Virus record (IMG/VR): IMGVR_UViG_3300023174_004575
Coordinates: 1 to 29,819 of that record
Reading direction: 5' to 3' (one strand)
DNA from: a virus
DNA: 29,819 nt
Shown: piece after piece, positions 4,382 to 25,195 of the stretch
Position numbering within the stretch: the stretch's first letter is position 1
Layout: every line of letters starts with the position of its first letter
Made by a program: the position numbers and the translations under genes
Notes under the pieces: generated by a model
What the model was told of the DNA's origin: nothing
Seen by the model: only the letters and a program-made list of their open reading frames with translations
Databases searched by the model: none

Positions 4382-5773
4382 TTAAAGAATTGTAATTCCT
4401 GTAAGAGTATTGCCGACTGTTTCCACCCACATACCAACATTACCAGATGGACCTGGCAATGTTATTCCCTGTACTGACAAAGTATTTCCTGATTTTACTG
4501 TAACTCTCCACCAATAGGTTGAACCATAATATGCTGGCGCACCACTTACAAGATATTTGCTCAACCAATCTACTCTATTGGTATTTGTAGATGCAACTCC
4601 TAAAGTAAATCCACCAATTCTAGAATTTACTTCGGTTAATGTATCATTAAGAAGTAATGCCATCGCAGTAATGCCACTTGCATTTGTGCCATAATCATTA
4701 AAATAACCAAATGCTTTTACTCCATGTAAAGCAGCATGTCTTACTAATTCATAATAATATGCTGAATTTCCTGCTGCACTATAAGTTTGTCCTACATTTG
4801 CATTCCATCCAGCCTTTACATCAGCAAATCCTACTGGTGGTGGTTTAAATGTTACTCCACCACCCGTATATAAAGGAGATGCAAACCAAGGAGTTAAAGG
4901 AATATTTGGAGCATTTCTTTTTGCTGAACGCAATTTTTGCATAGTAATTAAAAAACTACTCCAAGGACTTCTAGAAACTGTATATACAGGATTTGTAGTT
5001 GCTCCCGGTAATAATCTGGTTGAATCGGTTGTACTAATTTGCCAACCTGTTTGAATAGTATCAATTTCTCCATATAAAACTGGAGAGGTAGCATTACCAA
5101 CCATATTGGAACGATATTCTGGGTGACCATTTAGATCCGGTGGAGCATCAGAAGTGCTTCCACTATAAAATGCATCATAATTACTTCCTTGTGCAGATGG
5201 ATATCTTGCTACTGTTGGTTCCCATAAAACTTTATCAATTAATTTATTTCTAAAAGTTTCAACAGATTTATTCCAAACAACATAATCATATGATTGTGCT
5301 GCTGGTAAATTTATTTTACCAATTGTAGCACCTTCTGCTGCCATTTGTGCGCTTAAAGAAGTAACTCCATTCCATGACTGCGTATAATTTGAATTTCTTG
5401 CAAATGCTGCGGTTAAACCAGTAATACCTGTTATTGTAAAACTAGTAAAGGCGCCATTTCCAGTAGTATCTACTTCAACATCAGCAAATAACCAATCAAT
5501 AACACCACCAGAATTACCAATAGCATCTAAAACTTTATTCCAAGCAGCTTTACCTAATGAAAGGCCATTATCTGCCCATGGTGTAGACCAAACTCCAGCA
5601 CAAAATCCTGCTACTCCAAGATCAGTATAAAAAGTCTGTCCACCGGATGATCCAGTTATTCCTTTATCCGAATTAAAAGTCCAATAACCAAAAGCAAAAG
5701 AATATGGTTCTATTGCTCTTTTATTTTTTGGCAATGCTAACAATCTTGTAATGGCTGCAGTTAATCCACCCAT
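4382..5773 (-). CDS. Third, diverged unit of the giant repeat protein
   Basis: A 463-residue protein from ATG 5773, starting MGGLTAAITRLLALPKNKRA. Its ATG overlaps the stop of the 2007-residue gene (TAATG), so it is probably translated by reinitiation. The protein aligns by eye with the two units of that giant protein. Its FADVEVD segment corresponds to ESDDEY and ECDDEY there; YYYELVRHAALHGVKAFGYF corresponds to YYENIRHQYLNKAGRYTHW; and YLVSGAPAYYGSTYWWRVTV corresponds to YLMSGAQKVDGQYLWRITF. It is about half as long as the other units. The acidic strands and aromatic motifs suggest an alpha/beta-barrel carbohydrate-active fold, which is inference. A TTG start at 5794 was rejected in favour of the coupled ATG. 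Confidence 0.72.
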   Translation of the reverse strand: MGGLTAAITRLLALPKNKRAIEPYSFAFGYWTFNSDKGITGSSGGQTFYTDLGVAGFCAGVWSTPWADNGLSLGKAAWNKVLDAIGNSGGVIDWLFADVEVDTTGNGAFTSFTITGITGLTAAFARNSNYTQSWNGVTSLSAQMAAEGATIGKINLPAAQSYDYVVWNKSVETFRNKLIDKVLWEPTVARYPSAQGSNYDAFYSGSTSDAPPDLNGHPEYRSNMVGNATSPVLYGEIDTIQTGWQISTTDSTRLLPGATTNPVYTVSRSPWSSFLITMQKLRSAKRNAPNIPLTPWFASPLYTGGGVTFKPPPVGFADVKAGWNANVGQTYSAAGNSAYYYELVRHAALHGVKAFGYFNDYGTNASGITAMALLLNDTLTEVNSRIGGFTLGVASTNTNRVDWLSKYLVSGAPAYYGSTYWWRVTVKSGNTLSVQGITLPGPSGNVGMWVETVGNTLTGITIL

Positions 5774-8700
5774 TATCCTATACCATCCTTCCAATCATCA
5801 TTTAGTGTTCGTTGAGTAAAGAATGCAAGCGGACTAACGTAATCAAATAGATTTACATTTGCTGCCCAATTATTTAGGGTTGTAGTGTCGGAACCAGTAT
5901 CAAATGGCCAATTAAAAGCAAACGCATTAATTGCAGGTCTAGTATTTGCTTCTGTCATTGTAAATGGATTATATTGAAATGGAGGATTATCTGGTAGATT
6001 CAATACTCCTAATCTTTCAGCTTCAGAGACTGGGGGATTTTCAACAATAGGAACTTCATAACGATCAGAAGTCCACCAAATACCAAACTTGCTATTTGGA
6101 TTATTAATGTAATCCGTTACAGTATTAATATTGTAAGCAGTTGTAATACCACTTACCGATCCACGAACAATTATTGGAGACTGTGTAGCAGGATGTGCAA
6201 ATGTGATTCTCCAAAGATAATCTCCATCAACTTTTTGAGCTCCAGATATTAAGTATGACCGTTCATCCATGTTTACAGGAGCCAAATATATGGTTTCCCA
6301 TACAATACCATTTCCCTTGGTCTGCAATTCTCCCAATACTGTGTTTATTGGTCTGGCAAGATTCATTGCCATAGCACCACATACTCCAAAATACGTCAAA
6401 CCACCTGTTCTAACAGGATTGGAAGTTGTAGCTTGCGGAAAATATCGTGGGAAATTTCCAGCACCAACACCACTCATGTATGATGTTGATATTGAAGTTG
6501 TGCAAGTATATTGTGGTGGATTCCAATATGAAAATCTTCCAGTTTTGTTTAAATACTGGTGTCTCATATTTTCATAATACATCGGGCTAGTTTCACCATA
6601 AACAAATGTTACCCCAGTAGCAGAAGTAGTTAATAGTTCATAATTAAAAGTGATTCCTTTTGGTACAAAGTAAAAATTTAATATTGAACTATTGGGCTTG
6701 CTGGGTTCCAGATTACTCCAATATGGATGTGCAATCCAAGAATTAATTGGTTTTTGAATTTTGTTCCAGTTTGATCCAGATATTCCTGGATAATTTACTG
6801 GATCATTCATTTGTAATTTGGCAGTTGCAACATTTACACTGGCCATATGTCTTCCAGTTTTTACATCTCCGAGCAGAGCCATGAATGCCATTGGATACCA
6901 GTGAGTCCAATATTGATTATAAAGAGTTCCAGCTGGAAGAGTATTTCCAGGGAATGGATTTCCGCAATTATCCAATCTTCCGGTATTTGAGTATGTTGTA
7001 GTTGAGGTAGAACCACCAATAAGTTCTCTACTAATACATCCATAAGTCAATCCCATAGAACTAATAATTTGTTTTTGTAAAATAGGAGCATAGTTAGCTG
7101 GACCTATGGTTGCACCACCATTAAATGTTTTTACATTTATTCCCCATACAGGATTTAAATGCCATCCCAAATAATGTGGTGCTCTATCAAATCCAACTTT
7201 AAGTTGGTTGGCTGCACTTGATCCAAATGCTCCAGTTGGATCAAATTTAAAGAATCCACAATTACCAAGTGTTTCTGCACATGCACGACAAATTACTATT
7301 TGAGCAGGAGCACATGATCCCAAATAAAATTCAGGTAGCCATTTTCTAGCATCGGTGTCATTGTAAAGTGGACCAGTTGAATTATTATTTCTATAAAATA
7401 ACATAACTGAATAATCATACCATCCAAGTGTTCCTTTTCCAAAAGTAACACCACTGCTTGACAATTTATATGAATTTCCTTTTACATCCAAATTTCTATC
7501 AATTAATTGATATGCATTACTTTGTTGATCAATTTGCGCAACTCCATAAAAATTCATATTATCAATATCACCAACTTTACTCATTGGTGAATTGTACATT
7601 GCTGTCAATGTTAGATTAAAATTATTATATCCATAATAATTTGTAACATTAATATCTGCATCAATTGGATCACGTGATGGATTTGGATATGGTACATAAT
7701 CATTTCCAGATCTTGTTAAACTATTAGTTAGATATAAATCTGGTGCTGGATTATTATAAGAAGGTGGCATATATTCTTTTGTTGCCACGTTTGTTCTAGC
7801 ATAATAGTAATTACCACTTAAAGAATTGTCAGCACAAATACCATTGTATTGCTTAAAATCATTAACACAATCAGTCCACATGTAGGCTATCCAATCCTGC
7901 AATGCAGCTTGATATTCTGGCTGCAAGTATTGGAATGGACTACCACCTGCGGCAATATTTCCCTGTGTATTTACATTACCAAGAGCTGTCAATCCTCTTA
8001 CATATCTAAATCCAGATGGATTGCTGGTAAATCCTCTTGTCAAAAGGAAAGCTTCCATAGAAGTAATACCTTCTGCAATCAAAGAATCTGGTGCAGCAGA
8101 AGAACCATAAAAATTAGCATACCAAGTAGATCCTGATGGGCTAAAATTTGGATAAAGCATTACTTTATAAAATTCTGGATCACCGGCATTATTGCCGCCT
8201 TGTCCTATTGATCTGAAATCCCAGTTCGCAGTAGATGAGTATTCATCATCACATTCCCAGTGTGCCATAGTAAAACCAAGAGATGCTGCTCTTAAATAAA
8301 ATGCTTTAAATTCAGCACGAGCAAAATTTATTTTACGTTTTATCCAAGGTGTCCAAACTCTGCTCAAATATGTTGCGCCTTGACTGGCATCATATTTGGT
8401 TGCTAAAAATTGTTCGGAACCAGTAATTCCAACGCCATAGACACCTCCAAGTTGATCTACCCATCTCCAAATTCTTGATGGATAAAAAACTCTATATTTA
8501 TTTGGAATCCATGAATAATCTGAAACTATTCTATCTACTAGACTTGTAGTTATAAATCCAGTTGAACCAAATGTAAATCCAATATATCCGGTGGCAGAAT
8601 TCCATGGTGCAGTTGCTCCTAAAATATCTCCGTTATCAGTATTGGTTTCGCCGCCAACACCAGCCCATTCTGCTGTTTGTGTTATATCTGAACCACCTGC

Positions 8701-11700
8701 TACAGGAAATATTCCAGCATTTAATAATGCTTTAGAAGGTCCTGTTCGTCCCGGCGAACTATAGCTAACAGAAGGCCACATATAAGTTAAGCCGTTGTTA
8801 CTTCCCCAGTTTTCCGTTTGTCTCCAATATCCATAAGGAGGGTCCTGCATCATACAGAACAAATTTGGATTTTCGTATCCATACGGAACTGCATTTCTAG
8901 ATTCTGGATTTCTAGTAGCATTGTACATTATCTTCGGATTCTCTGGAAGATTTACAATGCCTCTACGCAGTGCTTCTGGAATTGGAGGATTTTCAACAAT
9001 TGGAACTTCATAGTTTCCAGTTGTCCACCATACACCAAATTTATTATTTGGAATGTTAATATAATCAGTAATACCACTGATATTATAAGCAGTTGTAACA
9101 CCAGAGCACGCACCACGAATTATAATTGGAGATGGATCTGTTGCTGGATTTGCAAATGTAATTCTCCAAAGATACTGGCCATCTACCTTTTGTGCACCAG
9201 ACATCAAATAGGATCTTTCGGAATCATTTCCGGGTGCAAGATATACAGTCTGGTATACCATACCGTTTCCACGAGTATTACAATCACCAATAACTGTATT
9301 AAGTTTTCTACCAAGACGCATTGTGATTGCGCCACATACACCATACATGGTAAGGCCAGCAATCAATACTGGTAATCCTTTATTATCAAGCATAACTTGA
9401 CCACCAGTAGCACTGGTTACACAGCTGTAGGTATAAGGATTCCAGTGAGTATACCTACCTGCTTTATTCAAATATTGATGACGTATATTTTCATAATACA
9501 TTACACCAGCTTCGGCAACATACTGTGTAACTAAAGTTTTAGTAGAACCTGTAACATAAAACCCTTGAACTAATCCAGTTGGTTCAAAATAAGCTCCACC
9601 TAAATTGAGATTTTGAGCTAGATCATTATCTGCAACAATATTATATTTACCTTCCAGATACAATTTTTCATCTTGAATCCATACATTGATTGGGCGTTGA
9701 ATACCGTTCCAATTTGATCCAGAAATACCGGGATATGTGCCTTCTTTTTGTTTTACTGCTCTATAAACATTTCCAACAGCAACTTGTCTTCCCCAGTTAA
9801 CATCATAATTCAATGCCATGAATGCCATTGGATACCAGTGGCTCCAATAGTGTTTGTAAAGAGTTCCAGCAGGCAAAGTATTTCCGGGATATGGGAATCC
9901 AGAAGAATCTAACATACTGGGTGTCCATACTGTCTCATTTCCTATTAATTGTCTGCTAACAGATCCCATGGTCAAACCATTTAATCCATATGGACCTTTA
10001 GTTGGAATATAGTTTGCTGGACCATAATTTGAAGCTGCATTTATAGCTGTGATTCCCCATACGGGATTTAAATGCCAAGAATTCCATTGTGGTGCTTTAT
10101 TATCGCCACAACGAGCAACAGAACCCAATCTGGAACCATTTATTCCAGTCGGATCAAATTTTTGAGCCGCCGACAACCCAAATACTTCATAGCAAAGACT
10201 AGCATTAAATGTTTGTGCAGGGGCGTTTGAATTTAAATAATTTGCTGGCAACCACCAAATTGGTGATCCTGACGCTAAACCAATTACTTGTCCAATTTGC
10301 CAATTGAAATTTGAATAAATTCCAAATGAAGATCCATAGGAATAAGAATTACCATAAAATAATTTTTGTCTATCTATTGATCTAGTACCAGCACCCTCAA
10401 CCTTTAATTGGTTCATTATACCACCATAGGTATAGATAGAATCAAAATTATTAGAAACTTCTCTTTGTACATAACCAGGTGATTGATTTGTTGTTAAATA
10501 ATTATAACTGTAATAATTTGTTTTATTACGGTTCACTGATGAAGATGCTGGAGTTGTGTCTGGATATGGAACAAAATCATTTGAATTTTGATTCAATAAT
10601 CCTGTGAAAAAATTGTCAAGAGAAGAATTTGTATATCCTTGTATGCCTACGTTATTTCTATAATAACCATAATTGCCTATAAAACTATTGTCCGCACATA
10701 ATCCATTGTGTCTTTTAAAATCTTCAACATAATCTGTCCAATGCATTGAAGTCCAATCAGTCAATGCTGCAGCATATTCTGCGGCAATAGATTGATCTCT
10801 ACTTCCACTTGCAGCAATGTTGTCTGCTCTACTTATAGATCCAAGTGCAGTCAAACCATTAACAAATTTTGATGAATTTGAATTTGTTGTGAATCCATGT
10901 GTCAAAAGATATGAACGAAATGATGTTATTCCTTGTGTTATCAAATAATCTGGTGCTGCACAAATTCCTGTATATGATGCATACCAACAATTTCCAGTTG
11001 CAGAATTGTTTGGATATAAAAAACCACTACCAAACAATGTACTTCCAAAAAATGTATTTCCTCCTCTTCCTCCTCTATTAAATGTTGCACCAATATTTCT
11101 AAAATCCCAGAATATATAATATTCGTCATCACTTTCCATACCGTTTAAAACAAATCCGGTATTTCCCATGACCTGCATTATATTTTGTAGCTCTTTGCGA
11201 ATAAAATTAAATTTACGTTTTAACCAAGGAGTTCTTAATGGATCTTCTGTGGAACTATTTCCCCATGCACTACTACTCGGAACATCGTATATAAGTTCGT
11301 AACCAATACCTCTATTGAATCCACAAAGACCACTGCATATTGCTCTATAATGTCTGCTATTGTCATATATTCTATTTGCAGAAGGAATCCATCTACTCAT
11401 TGAAACAATTTCATTTATACTGGTCAAACCAATATGACCAGTATTACCAAATGTAAATCCAAAATATCCTGTTGCGCTATTTAATGGAGCTACATTCCAA
11501 TCTATATCAAATGGACTAGTCCATTTATCACTGCCTACTCCCGGCCAGCTTGCTTCAGTTACACCTTGAGCATATGTAGTTGGAAACCGTCCAGCTGCAA
11601 GTTCAGATCTGCTTGGCCCCCATACACCACTTTGATCACGAATTATTGGAAACAAATATGTTAATCCATTTTGGCTACCATAAGTCTCACCTTGCCCATA

Positions 11701-11796
11701 CCATCCATAATATGGAACCCATGCATAAGAATATACAGTTGGATTATTGTTGCCAATCGATTGAGAAATATTAGTGTTCAGTAATAATGGATGCAT
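5773..11796 (-). CDS. Giant virion protein, two tandem units of about 960-985 residues
   Basis: A 2007-residue protein with no signal peptide, no transmembrane segment and no family I recognise. It is an internal duplication. Each unit contains, in order: a GLTYLFP or GLTYMWP start; an acidic WDF motif (ESDDEYYIFWDF at 221-232; ECDDEY from 1181); HWYPMAFMAL; PGISGSNWN; YYENIRHQYLNK or YYENMRHQYLNK; ERSYL.SGAQKVDG.YLWRITF; and VPIVENPP. The conserved acids on predicted strands resemble glycoside-hydrolase barrels. The size, composition (Asn, Tyr, Trp, Gly) and late promoter suggest a tail-fibre, baseplate or other host-contact protein. The ATG at 11796 follows a CTAAATA promoter by 30 nt. A separate gene with a third unit follows. 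Confidence 0.8.
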   Translation of the reverse strand: MHPLLLNTNISQSIGNNNPTVYSYAWVPYYGWYGQGETYGSQNGLTYLFPIIRDQSGVWGPSRSELAAGRFPTTYAQGVTEASWPGVGSDKWTSPFDIDWNVAPLNSATGYFGFTFGNTGHIGLTSINEIVSMSRWIPSANRIYDNSRHYRAICSGLCGFNRGIGYELIYDVPSSSAWGNSSTEDPLRTPWLKRKFNFIRKELQNIMQVMGNTGFVLNGMESDDEYYIFWDFRNIGATFNRGGRGGNTFFGSTLFGSGFLYPNNSATGNCWYASYTGICAAPDYLITQGITSFRSYLLTHGFTTNSNSSKFVNGLTALGSISRADNIAASGSRDQSIAAEYAAALTDWTSMHWTDYVEDFKRHNGLCADNSFIGNYGYYRNNVGIQGYTNSSLDNFFTGLLNQNSNDFVPYPDTTPASSSVNRNKTNYYSYNYLTTNQSPGYVQREVSNNFDSIYTYGGIMNQLKVEGAGTRSIDRQKLFYGNSYSYGSSFGIYSNFNWQIGQVIGLASGSPIWWLPANYLNSNAPAQTFNASLCYEVFGLSAAQKFDPTGINGSRLGSVARCGDNKAPQWNSWHLNPVWGITAINAASNYGPANYIPTKGPYGLNGLTMGSVSRQLIGNETVWTPSMLDSSGFPYPGNTLPAGTLYKHYWSHWYPMAFMALNYDVNWGRQVAVGNVYRAVKQKEGTYPGISGSNWNGIQRPINVWIQDEKLYLEGKYNIVADNDLAQNLNLGGAYFEPTGLVQGFYVTGSTKTLVTQYVAEAGVMYYENIRHQYLNKAGRYTHWNPYTYSCVTSATGGQVMLDNKGLPVLIAGLTMYGVCGAITMRLGRKLNTVIGDCNTRGNGMVYQTVYLAPGNDSERSYLMSGAQKVDGQYLWRITFANPATDPSPIIIRGACSGVTTAYNISGITDYINIPNNKFGVWWTTGNYEVPIVENPPIPEALRRGIVNLPENPKIMYNATRNPESRNAVPYGYENPNLFCMMQDPPYGYWRQTENWGSNNGLTYMWPSVSYSSPGRTGPSKALLNAGIFPVAGGSDITQTAEWAGVGGETNTDNGDILGATAPWNSATGYIGFTFGSTGFITTSLVDRIVSDYSWIPNKYRVFYPSRIWRWVDQLGGVYGVGITGSEQFLATKYDASQGATYLSRVWTPWIKRKINFARAEFKAFYLRAASLGFTMAHWECDDEYSSTANWDFRSIGQGGNNAGDPEFYKVMLYPNFSPSGSTWYANFYGSSAAPDSLIAEGITSMEAFLLTRGFTSNPSGFRYVRGLTALGNVNTQGNIAAGGSPFQYLQPEYQAALQDWIAYMWTDCVNDFKQYNGICADNSLSGNYYYARTNVATKEYMPPSYNNPAPDLYLTNSLTRSGNDYVPYPNPSRDPIDADINVTNYYGYNNFNLTLTAMYNSPMSKVGDIDNMNFYGVAQIDQQSNAYQLIDRNLDVKGNSYKLSSSGVTFGKGTLGWYDYSVMLFYRNNNSTGPLYNDTDARKWLPEFYLGSCAPAQIVICRACAETLGNCGFFKFDPTGAFGSSAANQLKVGFDRAPHYLGWHLNPVWGINVKTFNGGATIGPANYAPILQKQIISSMGLTYGCISRELIGGSTSTTTYSNTGRLDNCGNPFPGNTLPAGTLYNQYWTHWYPMAFMALLGDVKTGRHMASVNVATAKLQMNDPVNYPGISGSNWNKIQKPINSWIAHPYWSNLEPSKPNSSILNFYFVPKGITFNYELLTTSATGVTFVYGETSPMYYENMRHQYLNKTGRFSYWNPPQYTCTTSISTSYMSGVGAGNFPRYFPQATTSNPVRTGGLTYFGVCGAMAMNLARPINTVLGELQTKGNGIVWETIYLAPVNMDERSYLISGAQKVDGDYLWRITFAHPATQSPIIVRGSVSGITTAYNINTVTDYINNPNSKFGIWWTSDRYEVPIVENPPVSEAERLGVLNLPDNPPFQYNPFTMTEANTRPAINAFAFNWPFDTGSDTTTLNNWAANVNLFDYVSPLAFFTQRTLNDDWKDGIG
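5995..8959 (-). repeat. Giant protein repeat unit 2 (approximate)
   Basis: The second coding unit, about residues 946-1933, ending after VPIVENPPVSEAERLG. A tail of about 70 residues follows (INAFAFNWPFDTGSD onward) that resembles the start of the separate third-unit gene (IEPYSFAFGYWTFNSD). Confidence 0.8.
8960..11796 (-). repeat. Giant protein repeat unit 1 (approximate)
   Basis: The first coding unit, residues 1 to about 945, ending just after VPIVENPPIPEALRRG. Matching landmarks in unit 2 lie about 960 (DDEY motif) to 985 (VENPP motif) residues further on. Confidence 0.8.
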
Positions 11797-12985: not shown

Positions 12986-12992
12986 ATAAATA
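12986..12992 (+). promoter_or_regulatory. T4-type late promoter ATAAATA (plus strand)
   Basis: ATAAATA directly after the stop of the preceding gene and 5 nt before ATG 12998. This is the same spacing as in several minus-strand genes, so a leaderless mRNA is predicted. Confidence 0.72.
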
Positions 12993-14500: not shown

Positions 14501-14571
14501 GCGAATGTAACTCAGTGGTAGAGTCTCGGTTTTCCAAACCGATGGTCGTGGGTTCGAATCCCATCGTTCGC
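14501..14571 (+). tRNA. tRNA-Gly (anticodon TCC)
   Basis: A complete 71-nt cloverleaf. The acceptor GCGAATG pairs with CGTTCGC, the D arm is ACTC/GAGT, the anticodon stem TCGGT/ACCGA encloses loop TTTCCAA (anticodon TCC), and the T arm is GTGGG/CCCAT around TTCGAAT. CCA is not encoded. Confidence 0.96.
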
Positions 14572-14597
14572 TTTTGACAATTAAAGACTATAAAACT

Positions 14598-14707
14598 GTA
14601 TAGGGATAACTGATACCCTAGCAGTAATCAGAGGTGGGGCGCGGGATACCTCAGAAGAACGCGCAGGGCTAGTACTATACTTCCCAGACCTTGATCAGGG
14701 CTGGAAA
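14598..14707 (+). ncRNA. Unidentified structured RNA with an H-type pseudoknot
   Basis: This noncoding spacer between two tRNA genes folds well by eye. An outer stem GTATAG/CTATAC (14598-14603 with 14675-14680) encloses CTAGC/GCTAG (14618-14622 with 14668-14672). Inside is an H-type pseudoknot: stem 1 GAGGT/ACCTC (14631-14635 with 14648-14652) and stem 2 GCGCG/CGCGC (14639-14643 with 14660-14664), with an A-rich third loop. A further hairpin CCAG/CTGG lies at 14684-14704. A TTGACA at 14574 with TGTATA 17 bp downstream could be its promoter, although co-transcription with the tRNAs is equally likely. It does not match RNase P, 6S or any riboswitch class I know. T4 also has two stable RNAs of unknown role in its tRNA cluster. 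Confidence 0.6.
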
Positions 14708-14729
14708 AAGGATTCAATGCCCGACTTTA

Positions 14730-14811
14730 GCGAGTTTACTCAAGCGGTCAACGAGGGCAGATTGTAAATCTGCTGGCTTATGTCTACGAAGGTTCGAATC
14801 CTTCAGCTCGC
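14730..14811 (+). tRNA. tRNA-Tyr (anticodon GTA)
   Basis: An 82-nt class II tRNA with a long variable arm. The acceptor GCGAGTT pairs with AGCTCGC (one T-G pair), the anticodon stem GCAGA/TCTGC encloses TTGTAAA (anticodon GTA), and the T arm is GAAGG/CCTTC around TTCGAAT. CCA is not encoded. Confidence 0.96.
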
Positions 14812-14824
14812 ATTTAGATATACA

Positions 14825-14831: not shown

Positions 14832-15313
14832 TGAAAAATAATTTATACATCACAATGTCATGGGAACTTCAGGCAATAGACAAAATTTGTGAAGAAATAC
14901 GAACAAAACAATTTATAAATGAAAAAACTGCAATATTGCAGTTAAGTTATGAATATTCTGGATTATTAGCACAATTATTGTCACACAAATTGTCTACAAA
15001 AAATGAACCTATTGATATTGAACCAGTAAATATTCCTTATAAATCAGAATTTGAAGCCATTATTCATCCCAATCAAATTGATTCATATGAAAGATTAATT
15101 GTAGTAGATAGTGGATGTTTGTCTGGTAACAATTTTAAAAAAATTAAAACTAAACTGCTTGACTATGGATTTTCTGAAGATAATTTATTATTTTGTTGTG
15201 TAGCATGCAGTACCATTTCTGTTTTTAAACCTGATATTTGTCCAATTTATTTTGATGGTAAAAATGATATGGTTCATTTTTGGTGGGAAACAAAAACTAA
15301 TAGATTTGACTAA
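14831..15313 (+). CDS. Possible phosphoribosyltransferase-fold protein
   Basis: A 160-residue protein from ATG 14831 (upstream codons lie in tRNA-Tyr, so earlier starts are excluded; ATG 14855 is an alternative). The helical N-terminal half (QAIDKICEEIRTKQ) is followed by RLIVVDSGCLSGNNFKKIKT, which resembles the PRPP-binding loop of type I phosphoribosyltransferases (hydrophobic strand, acidic residue, then a Ser/Gly loop). The C-terminal MVHFWWETK recalls the FPW/WE ending of that family. The usual second loop acid is replaced by Ser (VVDSG rather than VVDD), so activity is uncertain. It sits between tRNA-Tyr and the tmRNA. Confidence 0.55.
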   Translation: MKNNLYITMSWELQAIDKICEEIRTKQFINEKTAILQLSYEYSGLLAQLLSHKLSTKNEPIDIEPVNIPYKSEFEAIIHPNQIDSYERLIVVDSGCLSGNNFKKIKTKLLDYGFSEDNLLFCCVACSTISVFKPDICPIYFDGKNDMVHFWWETKTNRFD

Positions 15314-15316
15314 ATA
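15306..15316 (+). promoter_or_regulatory. Overlapping TTGACT and CTAAATA elements before the tmRNA
   Basis: TTGACTAAATA combines a -35-like hexamer (15306-15311) with a late element CTAAATA (15310-15316), overlapping the stop codon of the preceding gene. Late initiation would fall near 15322, just before the tmRNA acceptor piece. No good sigma70 -10 follows at 16-17 bp. Confidence 0.5.
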
Positions 15317-15638
15317 ATATTGGTATTGTTGATATTGGATTGAAATGCGTACAAGACGGGGGTTCGAATCCCCCCGGCTCCATTAGCCTAACCAAGAGAT
15401 TCTGCAATTCTTTAGGGATGGCGATCCAAGTCCTCGTAGCAGCGGGGCATTTCCCGAAGTCCTAGGCTTCGGGTCACGGGGCCGAAAGGAATAGATTGGC
15501 GCAAAGTAATGAAAAAGGAGATACCCGACACGGGTAACAAGTGTCGTAAATAAACAGTTGCAAAAAATAATTGCTAACCAATTAGCAATGGCTGCTTGAA
15601 GCAGTGGGGTTTGGTCTCCCGCATCTGAATCGACCCTT
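15317..15638 (+). ncRNA. ssrA: Circularly permuted (two-piece) tmRNA
   Basis: The 3' tRNA-like half is encoded first. The acceptor piece (about 15322-15382) has T arm GGGGG/CCCCC around TTCGAAT, then CGGCTCC and discriminator A15382, with CCA not encoded. A 95-nt intervening sequence (15383-15477) follows. The coding piece starts at 15478 with GGGGCCG, which pairs with CGGCTCC and creates the G3-U70 pair that AlaRS requires. An H-type pseudoknot (ACCC/GGGT at 15523-15535; GACAC/GTGTC at 15527-15545) lies just before the tag frame, as PK1 does in tmRNA, and the tag frame ends AMAA-stop. GCGCA in the coding piece can pair with TGCGT in the acceptor piece as part of P2. The product charges with Ala and rescues stalled ribosomes together with SmpB. 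Permuted genes are known in alphaproteobacteria, cyanobacteria and some betaproteobacteria. Confidence 0.92.
15546..15599 (+). other. tmRNA tag-peptide reading frame
   Basis: The frame ending in TGA at 15597-15599 reads ...QKIIANQLAMAA. LAMAA is a typical degradation-tag ending recognised by ClpXP-type proteases. The expected GCA resume codon after CAGTT (15560-15562) is one base out of this frame and would give only AKNNC before a stop. If the A6 run at 15562-15567 were A5, the tag would read AKIIANQLAMAA in one frame. Confidence 0.7.
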
Positions 15639-15664
15639 AACCCCCCTCAAAAGGGGTTTTGTTA
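15639..15664 (+). terminator. Intrinsic terminator of the tmRNA
   Basis: Stem AACCCC/GGGGTT (15639-15644 with 15653-15658), loop CCTCAAAA, then TTTTGTTATTT. It closes the coding piece and directly precedes the next promoter. Confidence 0.82.
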
Positions 15665-15665
15665 T

Positions 15666-15693
15666 TTGACAGACCATAAATAAGGAGTATACT
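15666..15693 (+). promoter_or_regulatory. Sigma70-like promoter TTGACA-N16-TATACT with embedded ATAAATA
   Basis: -35 TTGACA (15666-15671), 16-bp spacer, -10 TATACT (15688-15693). A late element ATAAATA (15676-15682) lies inside the spacer, followed by AAGGAG. The ATG at 15700 is 7 bases past the -10, so the sigma70 transcript would be leaderless. Confidence 0.72.
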
Positions 15694-23791: not shown

Positions 23792-25195
23792 TCATCTCTG
23801 GCGGAAAAGGGTAGAATATCTTCCCAATTGTTCTGCCCCAAGACCAATATCAGCATTGGTTGCAGCTCCACCAAATCCTACTCCACTATAGGAAGTTTGT
23901 TTAGCAGGTCCACCTAATAGCATTCCTGCTAATTTTGCACCAATTCCAGCTTTTTCACCTTTAGCTTCTTCGGTCTTCTTATCTTCTTCGGTCTTCTTAC
24001 CTTCTTCACCTTCAGCTTCTTCAGACTTTTTACCTTCTTCACCTTCAGCTTCTTCAGACTTTTTACCTTCTTCACCTTTAGCTTCTTCAGCCTTCTTACT
24101 TTCTTCAGCCTTCTTACCTTCTTCAGCCTTCTTACTTTCTTCAGCCTTCTTACCTTCTTCAGCCTTCTTACTTTCTTCAGCCTTCTTACCTTCTTCAGCC
24201 TTCTTACCTTCTTCAGCCTTCTTACCTTCTTCAGGCTTCTTACCTTCTTCAGGCTTCTTACCTTCTTCAGGCTTCTTACCTTCTTCAGGCTTCTTACCTT
24301 CTGCTGGTTTAGGAGCTTCTGCTGGTTTAGGAGCTTCTGCTGGTTTAGGAGCTTCTGCTGGTTTAGGAGCTTCTGCTGGTTTAGGAGCTTCTGCTGGTTT
24401 AGGAGCTTCTGCTGGTTTAGGAGCTTCTGGTTTTCCGGTTGCAGCATCTTCTAATGCTCGTTGTTCTGGAGTCAAATTAGATCTTTTTGATGCTTCTCTG
24501 GCTGCGCGTTCAGCAAGTTTTTCAGCAGTTTGTTGACCGGATTCAATAGCATATTTTGACCATGTATCAAAATCTTTACCAAATGTTTCGGAATAATTTT
24601 TATATTTTGGATCTGTAAATATTTCGTGTGATTTTTTAATTTGATCTTGAACAGCTTTAGTTAATTCTTCGCCTTTTAAACCTTTTTGACTTAATTCCAT
24701 TGCTGTTTTTGCAATGTCATCATTTAATTGGTTAAATGCTTTTGATTGTGCTTGAAAAGCTGCTTCTGCGGCTGCTTCTGCACCTTTACTTACAGTTTCA
24801 CCAGCTTTGGCTGCACCTTCTGCTGTTTTGCCTGCAGTTTCTGCTGCTTTTACTCCGGTTTCTATACCTTTACCAGCAGCTTCAGCACCTTTAGCAGCAG
24901 CTTCACCGCCAGTCAATAATGCTTTTAATGCTTCCAATCCTTCAACACCAAGTTTTAATCCTATTTCTGCTACTTTTTCTTTTCCTTCATTTAATTTTCT
25001 TTTTCTTTTTAAATTATATGGGAGGAATTTTTTTCCAGCAGAAATATCTTCAGTTAATTTAATTACTTCTTTTAGAATACGGTCTTTTGATTTATCATTA
25101 TTATGAGGAGAAAAATACCCACTTTCAAAAAGAAGAGTGGAATAATTTTGTAAATTATATCTATTTTCTAAAAGAATATTAACTAAATTGTTCAT
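23792..25195 (-). CDS. Repeat-rich Lys/Glu/Ala virion-type protein
   Basis: A 467-residue protein. The N-terminus MNNLVNILLENRYNLQNYST reaches LFE|SG at residues 22-26, a possible prohead-protease site, and KLNEGK follows near residue 70. Residues about 80-150 are an Ala/Gly-rich helix (AAAKGAEAAGKGIETGVKAA) and 150-255 a charged helical region. Residues about 256-405 are seven APKPAE hexapeptides followed by some twenty GKKPEE/GKKAEE-type hexapeptides. The tail is GIGAKLAGMLLGGPA plus a Gly-rich segment. The extended Pro stalk and helical rod recall TolA-like spacers. A CTAAATA promoter lies 13 nt before ATG 25195. Confidence 0.7.
   Translation of the reverse strand: MNNLVNILLENRYNLQNYSTLLFESGYFSPHNNDKSKDRILKEVIKLTEDISAGKKFLPYNLKRKRKLNEGKEKVAEIGLKLGVEGLEALKALLTGGEAAAKGAEAAGKGIETGVKAAETAGKTAEGAAKAGETVSKGAEAAAEAAFQAQSKAFNQLNDDIAKTAMELSQKGLKGEELTKAVQDQIKKSHEIFTDPKYKNYSETFGKDFDTWSKYAIESGQQTAEKLAERAAREASKRSNLTPEQRALEDAATGKPEAPKPAEAPKPAEAPKPAEAPKPAEAPKPAEAPKPAEAPKPAEGKKPEEGKKPEEGKKPEEGKKPEEGKKAEEGKKAEEGKKAEESKKAEEGKKAEESKKAEEGKKAEESKKAEEAKGEEGKKSEEAEGEEGKKSEEAEGEEGKKTEEDKKTEEAKGEKAGIGAKLAGMLLGGPAKQTSYSGVGFGGAATNADIGLGAEQLGRYSTLFRQR
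23965..24428 (-). repeat. Tandem 18-bp coding repeats (APKPAE and GKKxEE)
   Basis: Seven near-identical 18-bp copies of the APKPAE unit (about 24303-24428) adjoin a longer run of 18-bp GKKPEE/GKKAEE/SKKAEE/GKKSEE units. Near identity at DNA level, including synonymous sites, points to recent expansion by slippage or recombination. Confidence 0.9.

Follow-up and report, generated by a model that had tools for sequence, protein, structure and literature searches.

A circularly permuted tmRNA of uncultured viruses, outside the bacterial lineage models and with a modular spacer between its halves

A stretch of viral DNA 29,819 nt in length (IMG/VR record IMGVR_UViG_3300023174_004575, a linear fragment with 36.9% G+C, hereafter the window) encodes a circularly permuted, two-piece tmRNA. 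Judging from comparison with related contigs, this RNA is very probably functional and represents a viral type that is widespread, had not been catalogued and lies outside the three lineage models of permuted tmRNA.

The open-access literature already knows permuted phage tmRNAs; what appears to be new is a type outside the lineage models, a modular structured spacer and placement behind a late promoter. An earlier note, made from the letters of the window, took phage tmRNAs to be one-piece and a permuted copy to be unusual. This does not hold: in a 2022 survey of 133 distinct phage tmRNAs, 53 were two-piece, and a gene of this kind is described there for Methylophilales phage Melnitz (PMC9004378). 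Another cultured phage, Synechococcus phage S-CRM01, has a permuted tmRNA too.

Identity of the gene and covariation of the core RNA

ARAGORN, proposed as a check by the earlier note, called a permuted tmRNA at 15292-15690 with the tag ANQLAMAA*. The Rfam covariance model RF04321 (tmRNA_permuted), built in a study whose list comprises 79 tmRNA sequences from bacteriophages, all forms taken together (PMC11915505), matched positions 15322-15599 with 77.6 bits (E 1.8e-13; cut-off 47 bits). Pattern scan of genome contigs retrieved mainly one-piece tmRNAs, which served as controls; genomes with one-piece tmRNAs did not exceed 36 bits when scored by RF04321. As in the RF04321 layout, the 3' tRNA-like half is followed by a spacer and then by the mRNA-like half. 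One-piece tmRNA and tRNA overlap are ruled out, half order and scores being incompatible with them, and chance resemblance is ruled out by the Rfam score together with covariation (see below). Better bounds of the feature are 15322, its probable first base, and about 15660, at the terminator.

All structural details of the earlier note that could be tested proved correct. Ends of the two halves and the 95 nt between them are exactly where it had placed them. The 7-bp acceptor stem is perfect (CGGCTCC/GGGGCCG) and includes G15480-U15379, the G3-U70 pair. PK1 stands, as claimed, ahead of a tag frame ending AMAA. Its placement of the gene among tRNAs and late genes is likewise borne out by tRNA-Gly and tRNA-Tyr just upstream and by a late-promoter core. 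Detected parts are listed in Table 1. The 157 nt between the two tRNA genes (14573-14729), without annotated gene, have a predicted folding energy of -41.9 kcal/mol.

Table 1. Parts of the permuted tmRNA gene and neighbouring features (positions in the window)
Feature	Position	Strand	Basis or remark
tRNA-Gly (TCC), neighbour	14501..14572	+	ARAGORN
tRNA-Tyr (GTA), neighbour	14730..14812	+	ARAGORN
T4-type late-promoter core TAAATA	15311..15316	+	11 nt before first base of acceptor piece
Acceptor piece: P2 5' strand, T arm, acceptor-stem 3' strand, discriminator A15382	15322..15382	+	ARAGORN, RF04321; GGTATTG start and cross-helices conserved, CCA not encoded
T arm: 5-bp stem GGGGG/CCCCC, loop TTCGAAT	15358..15374	+	Double-sided changes
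Acceptor-stem 3' strand, with U15379 (G3-U70 partner)	15375..15381	+	Pairs with 15478-15484
Intervening sequence, 95 nt, structured element I	15383..15477	+	Covariation in 19 distinct versions
Element I, hairpin A	15386..15422	+	
Element I, hairpin B	15432..15447	+	
Element I, hairpin C	15453..15473	+	
Element I, loop-loop pairing CTGC/GCAG	15402..15405 / 15439..15442	+	Hairpins A and B
Coding piece (mRNA-like half)	15478..15640	+	RF04321, ARAGORN
Acceptor-stem 5' strand GGGGCCG	15478..15484	+	RF04321, pairing; cleavage by RNase P expected at G15478
Upper P2 3' strand, joining the halves	15496..15503	+	Pairs with 15346-15354 of acceptor piece
Lower P2 3' strand ATACC	15521..15525	+	Pairs with 15322-15326; RF04321, covariation
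Pseudoknot PK1: stem 1 CGACAC/GTGTCG, stem 2 GTAAC/GTTGC	15526..15561	+	
Tag reading frame ANQLAMAA-stop	15573..15599	+	ARAGORN; within hairpin 15570-15589
P5 hairpin CTGC-TTGAA-GCAG, overlapping the tag end	15592..15604	+	Covariation
3' pseudoknot (H-type): GGG/CCC with GGTC/GACC	15607..15635	+	Second stem covaries
Intrinsic terminator	15639..15658	+	Terminator scan

Full permuted tmRNA was found in 14 related contigs, which had been retrieved through two genes, the nucleotidyltransferase-like one and that upstream of tmRNA. The PK1 signature was detected in 78 IMG/VR contigs. Searches with the spacer elements (see below) added 8 further ones with the elements at the same place, two of which (L343, L349) are cut before the RNA end; in total, at least 86 IMG/VR contigs besides the window carry the tmRNA or a spacer motif. 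A single pattern spanning both halves had no match because stem letters vary. No similar coding half was present among 50,697 deposited phage records, and when the tmRNA was searched by BLAST in deposited phages, only T-arm or chance matches appeared.

When 73 proposed pairs were inspected in 15 related viral sequences, 97.5% of cells were found paired. Double-sided changes affect 16 of the 73 pairs, compared with a shuffled mean of 3.7 and none of 500 shuffles as high. In 61 distinct spliced sequences, such changes affect 18 of 51 pairs (shuffled mean 10.9, largest 16). Compensatory changes support the predicted acceptor stem, T stem, P2 joining the halves, PK1 and P5. Nine variants of the acceptor stem occur. 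G3-U70 is present in all family members compared (73 of 73), and CCA is encoded in none. Double-sided changes concern three of five T-stem pairs (61 distinct sequences) and five of eight upper P2 pairs (15 viral sequences). In a variant class of PK1, stem 1 is CGTTAC/GGAACG; here pairing is retained at two comparable changed positions and one pair is lost. P5 covaries to GGC/GCC and CGC/GCG forms, and the 3' pseudoknot reads CCCGGTT/AACCGGG in other members.

The tag keeps to the pattern A-x-x-(L/M)-(A/R)-(M/I/V)-A-A across the family despite DNA changes. Its frame has an alanine resume codon and a hydrophobic end in AA, as in RF04321. The D-loop region reads AATAGATTGG in the subgroup of the window, and TTCGA in bacterial permuted tmRNAs and other members. 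Unconstrained folding of 15322-15660 yields acceptor stem, T stem and upper P2 (z -2.47).

Two unrelated folds in the spacer

The spacers of 77 members with both halves fall into several length classes: 5-6 nt (14 members), 31 nt (3), 71-73 nt (9), 95-99 nt (43) and 122-173 nt (8). Spacers of 71-99 nt represent one element (element I), composed of two hairpins with pairing loops and an optional third hairpin. Across its 19 distinct versions, 92.8% of cells are paired and 13 of 25 pairs show double-sided changes, a number equalled in 0 of 500 shuffles. One pair of the loop-loop contact CTGC/GCAG switches from CG to UA. Spacers of 122-173 nt correspond to element II, an unrelated fold closed by GGTTAG/CTAACC, with double-sided changes at 5 of 25 pairs among n = 5 sequences only.

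Neither element is matched by any Rfam family, and the idea that the spacer contains a glutamine riboswitch or some other Rfam RNA was rejected for this reason. In IMG/VR, element I lies within the tmRNA spacer in 35 of 35 contigs and element II in 9 of 9, and neither turned up elsewhere in that database. Some spacers measure only 5 nt, so that the core RNA can do without this part.

The folds might aid processing or stability: the stacked hairpins would compact the long loop and position the cleavage sites, and the excised piece would have no further role. We consider this possible, if tentative; it concerns the spacer alone and is compatible with the main explanation, that of a functional tmRNA. 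It agrees with the predicted precursor, in which the spacer closes the acceptor stem, and with replacement of the spacer sequence by a different fold or its loss. However, members with 5-nt spacers evidently manage without any spacer fold, and the loop-loop contact is strictly conserved, which demands more than compactness. Rather unlikely, in our opinion, is that the spacer is a cargo slot, holding at least two unrelated uncatalogued RNA families that would be excised by tRNA-processing enzymes during tmRNA maturation and then act as separate small RNAs in late infection.

Relationship to known permuted tmRNAs

With RF04321, the viral type shares the swapped order, acceptor stem with G3-U70, T arm, P2 between the halves, PK1 and a tag frame ending in AA. 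Its members reach 50-85 bits with this model, whereas bacterial members reach 123-176. On the window, all three lineage models of Rfam stayed under their cut-offs: RF01850 (beta_tmRNA) gave 43.4 bits (cut-off 84), RF01851 (cyano_tmRNA) 31.9 (cut-off 70) and RF01849 (alpha_tmRNA) 27.6 (cut-off 50). Positive controls scored 106.7 (Melnitz, alpha), 74.3 (S-CRM01, cyano) and 104-331 bits (betaproteobacteria, beta). These scores speak against capture of an alpha, beta or cyano gene from a host.

The best lineage model is beta for most members and cyano for several element II members. By eye, the layout after the tag is also that of beta_tmRNA, namely P5 hairpin, H-type pseudoknot and terminator. 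On the other hand, phage members score 25-56 bits with this model, compared with 104-331 for true betaproteobacterial genes, they have no encoded CC(A), and their PK1 and tag differ. Spacers differ as well, being 5-173 nt long with structured modules in the phage type and 25-43 nt in most betaproteobacterial genes found.

Melnitz, a Kyanoviridae phage, likewise carries a permuted tmRNA (PMC9004378). This one is of alpha type, with a 142-nt spacer and a glutamine riboswitch downstream, and is located near an early promoter (PMC9004378), in contrast to the late-promoter core in the window. Most of a 54-codon open frame running into the coding half is contained in the Melnitz spacer (MZ577097.1, 46096-46260). 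In S-CRM01, which has a marker gene in common with the window, permuted tmRNA lies next to tRNA genes, as it does in the window, but it is of cyano type, with a 5-nt spacer and a long tag. It is situated at 88361-88533 of HQ615693.1 on the minus strand (L122), encodes the tag ANNVVKFRRTAVTSLVAAL and is unannotated in the GenBank record.

Proteins of the window match T4-like phages. Its exonuclease shares 44-47% identity with homologues in cyanophages, and a nucleotidyltransferase-like protein shares about 50% with proteins of freshwater and marine Synechococcus phages; GroES-like and RuvC-like proteins are encoded as well. All family contigs lack psbA, which is present in S-CRM01. This is a weak sign of a non-cyanobacterial host and disfavours a cyanophage host, though it is only suggestive because the contigs are fragments. 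Further genes of the window, all on the minus strand, encode a trypsin-like serine protease, here in a phage (29005-29802; PF00089, E 7e-16), a protein in which KPAEAP and GKKPEE/GKKAEE are repeated over long stretches (23792-25195) and a 2007-residue product with two similar halves by eye (5773-11796), which is probably a large structural protein.

According to the earlier note, the gene might reveal the host lineage. This expectation was not confirmed, as no alpha, beta or cyano model reached its cut-off and the deeper position of the phage sequences in the trees depends on the tag columns. All phage members form one clade (support 100/99). Betaproteobacterial grouping has p-AU 0.35 when constrained and is absent from the best tree without tag columns. 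Permutation could also have arisen anew within phages, from a one-piece phage tmRNA instead of a bacterium with permuted ssrA; this bears on origin only and seems to us improbable. In its favour, the one-piece tmRNAs of viruses sharing a marker gene (L099-L102) have a tag, ANTRAFAMAA, that ends similarly, and a tree including the tag unites both types with support 98/92. However, the grouping vanishes without tag columns, its p-AU of 0.31 compares with 0.35 for betaproteobacterial affinity, neither being rejected, and neighbourhoods of permuted and one-piece tmRNAs are not shared. The link, seen in one tree only, was therefore not retained. One-piece tmRNAs were observed in the marker-sharing viruses L099, L100, L101, L102 and L112, with tags ANTRAFAMAA and GEVNLALAA; the form of tmRNA thus differs among related viruses.

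Predicted expression and role

TAAATA corresponds to the core of the late promoter of T4, given as TATAAAT in PMC3037559. Half of the distinct upstream sequences in the family (25 of 50) have it at -10 to -12, 19 of them at exactly -11, counted from the first base conserved in the acceptor piece; about 0.02 would be expected per sequence. In T4, transcription starts about 6 nt past the late-promoter box, which would put +1 at or next to G15322. With the core 11 nt upstream, the acceptor piece is thus probably transcribed from its first base.

Where a member lacks the box, a tRNA gene or a T-arm-like sequence usually lies directly upstream. In several such members (L264, L267, L269, L274, L297 and others) a conserved T-arm-like GTGCAAGTCC...CTACGCTTT stands just upstream of GGTATTG; it could be an unrecognised tRNA or a signal for processing. 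TAAATA also occurs at -11 of ATG in 36 of 251 ORF starts of the window and related contigs, in the window for example at 2336, 3205, 4022, 12231 and 14331 on the minus strand and at 12987 on the plus strand. Late transcripts in these viruses may be leaderless.

No SmpB gene was found in 17 family or near-family contigs, all of them fragments, while 10 of 14 control genomes were positive. Phage-encoded SmpB was thus not detected in the fragment contigs searched, and host SmpB would be needed.

The most likely explanation is a late-expressed two-piece tmRNA partnered with host SmpB. We infer its expression, processing, charging, partnership with SmpB and benefit to the phage from the features described above. 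Against this explanation stand the scores under the cut-off in all three lineage models and the changed D-loop sequence in the subgroup of the window. A T4-type late promoter would drive a transcript starting from or next to G15322 and ending at the terminator. In this precursor, the spacer would form the loop that closes the acceptor stem. Host RNase P would cleave before G15478, RNase Z or exonucleases would make the 3' end at A15382, and CCA would be added by host enzymes. The RNA could then be charged by alanyl-tRNA synthetase via G3-U70, the two pieces being held together by P2. Together with host SmpB, the complex would rescue ribosomes stalled late in infection and append the degradation tag ANQLAMAA.

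It is very unlikely that the gene is a passenger captured from host ssrA, neither selected nor used by the phage. Such origin could account for divergence from all lineage models and for loss of TTCGA in the subgroup of the window, but compensatory changes in nearly every helix and the preserved tag in 61 distinct sequences, presence of a terminator and a phage-type promoter, and a single clade across dozens of viral contigs speak against it. Least credible is that the halves are kept mainly to carry the spacer, the selected product being a small RNA freed by RNase P and RNase Z: strong covariation of element I, a second, unrelated fold in the same place in other members and confinement of both folds to this spacer in IMG/VR would fit, yet 16 of 73 members have a 5-6-nt spacer with tmRNA parts intact, which indicates that tmRNA itself is selected.

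The tmRNA of the window extends permuted phage tmRNA beyond near-copies of bacterial alpha and cyano types, as represented by Melnitz and S-CRM01. It constitutes a separate type across dozens of uncultured virus contigs, with covariation showing selection. Fixed spacing of the late promoter provides a precise prediction of the 5' end of the acceptor piece. Finally, the modular spacer poses a testable question, that of a discardable piece which has a conserved fold in some relatives and is nearly absent in others.
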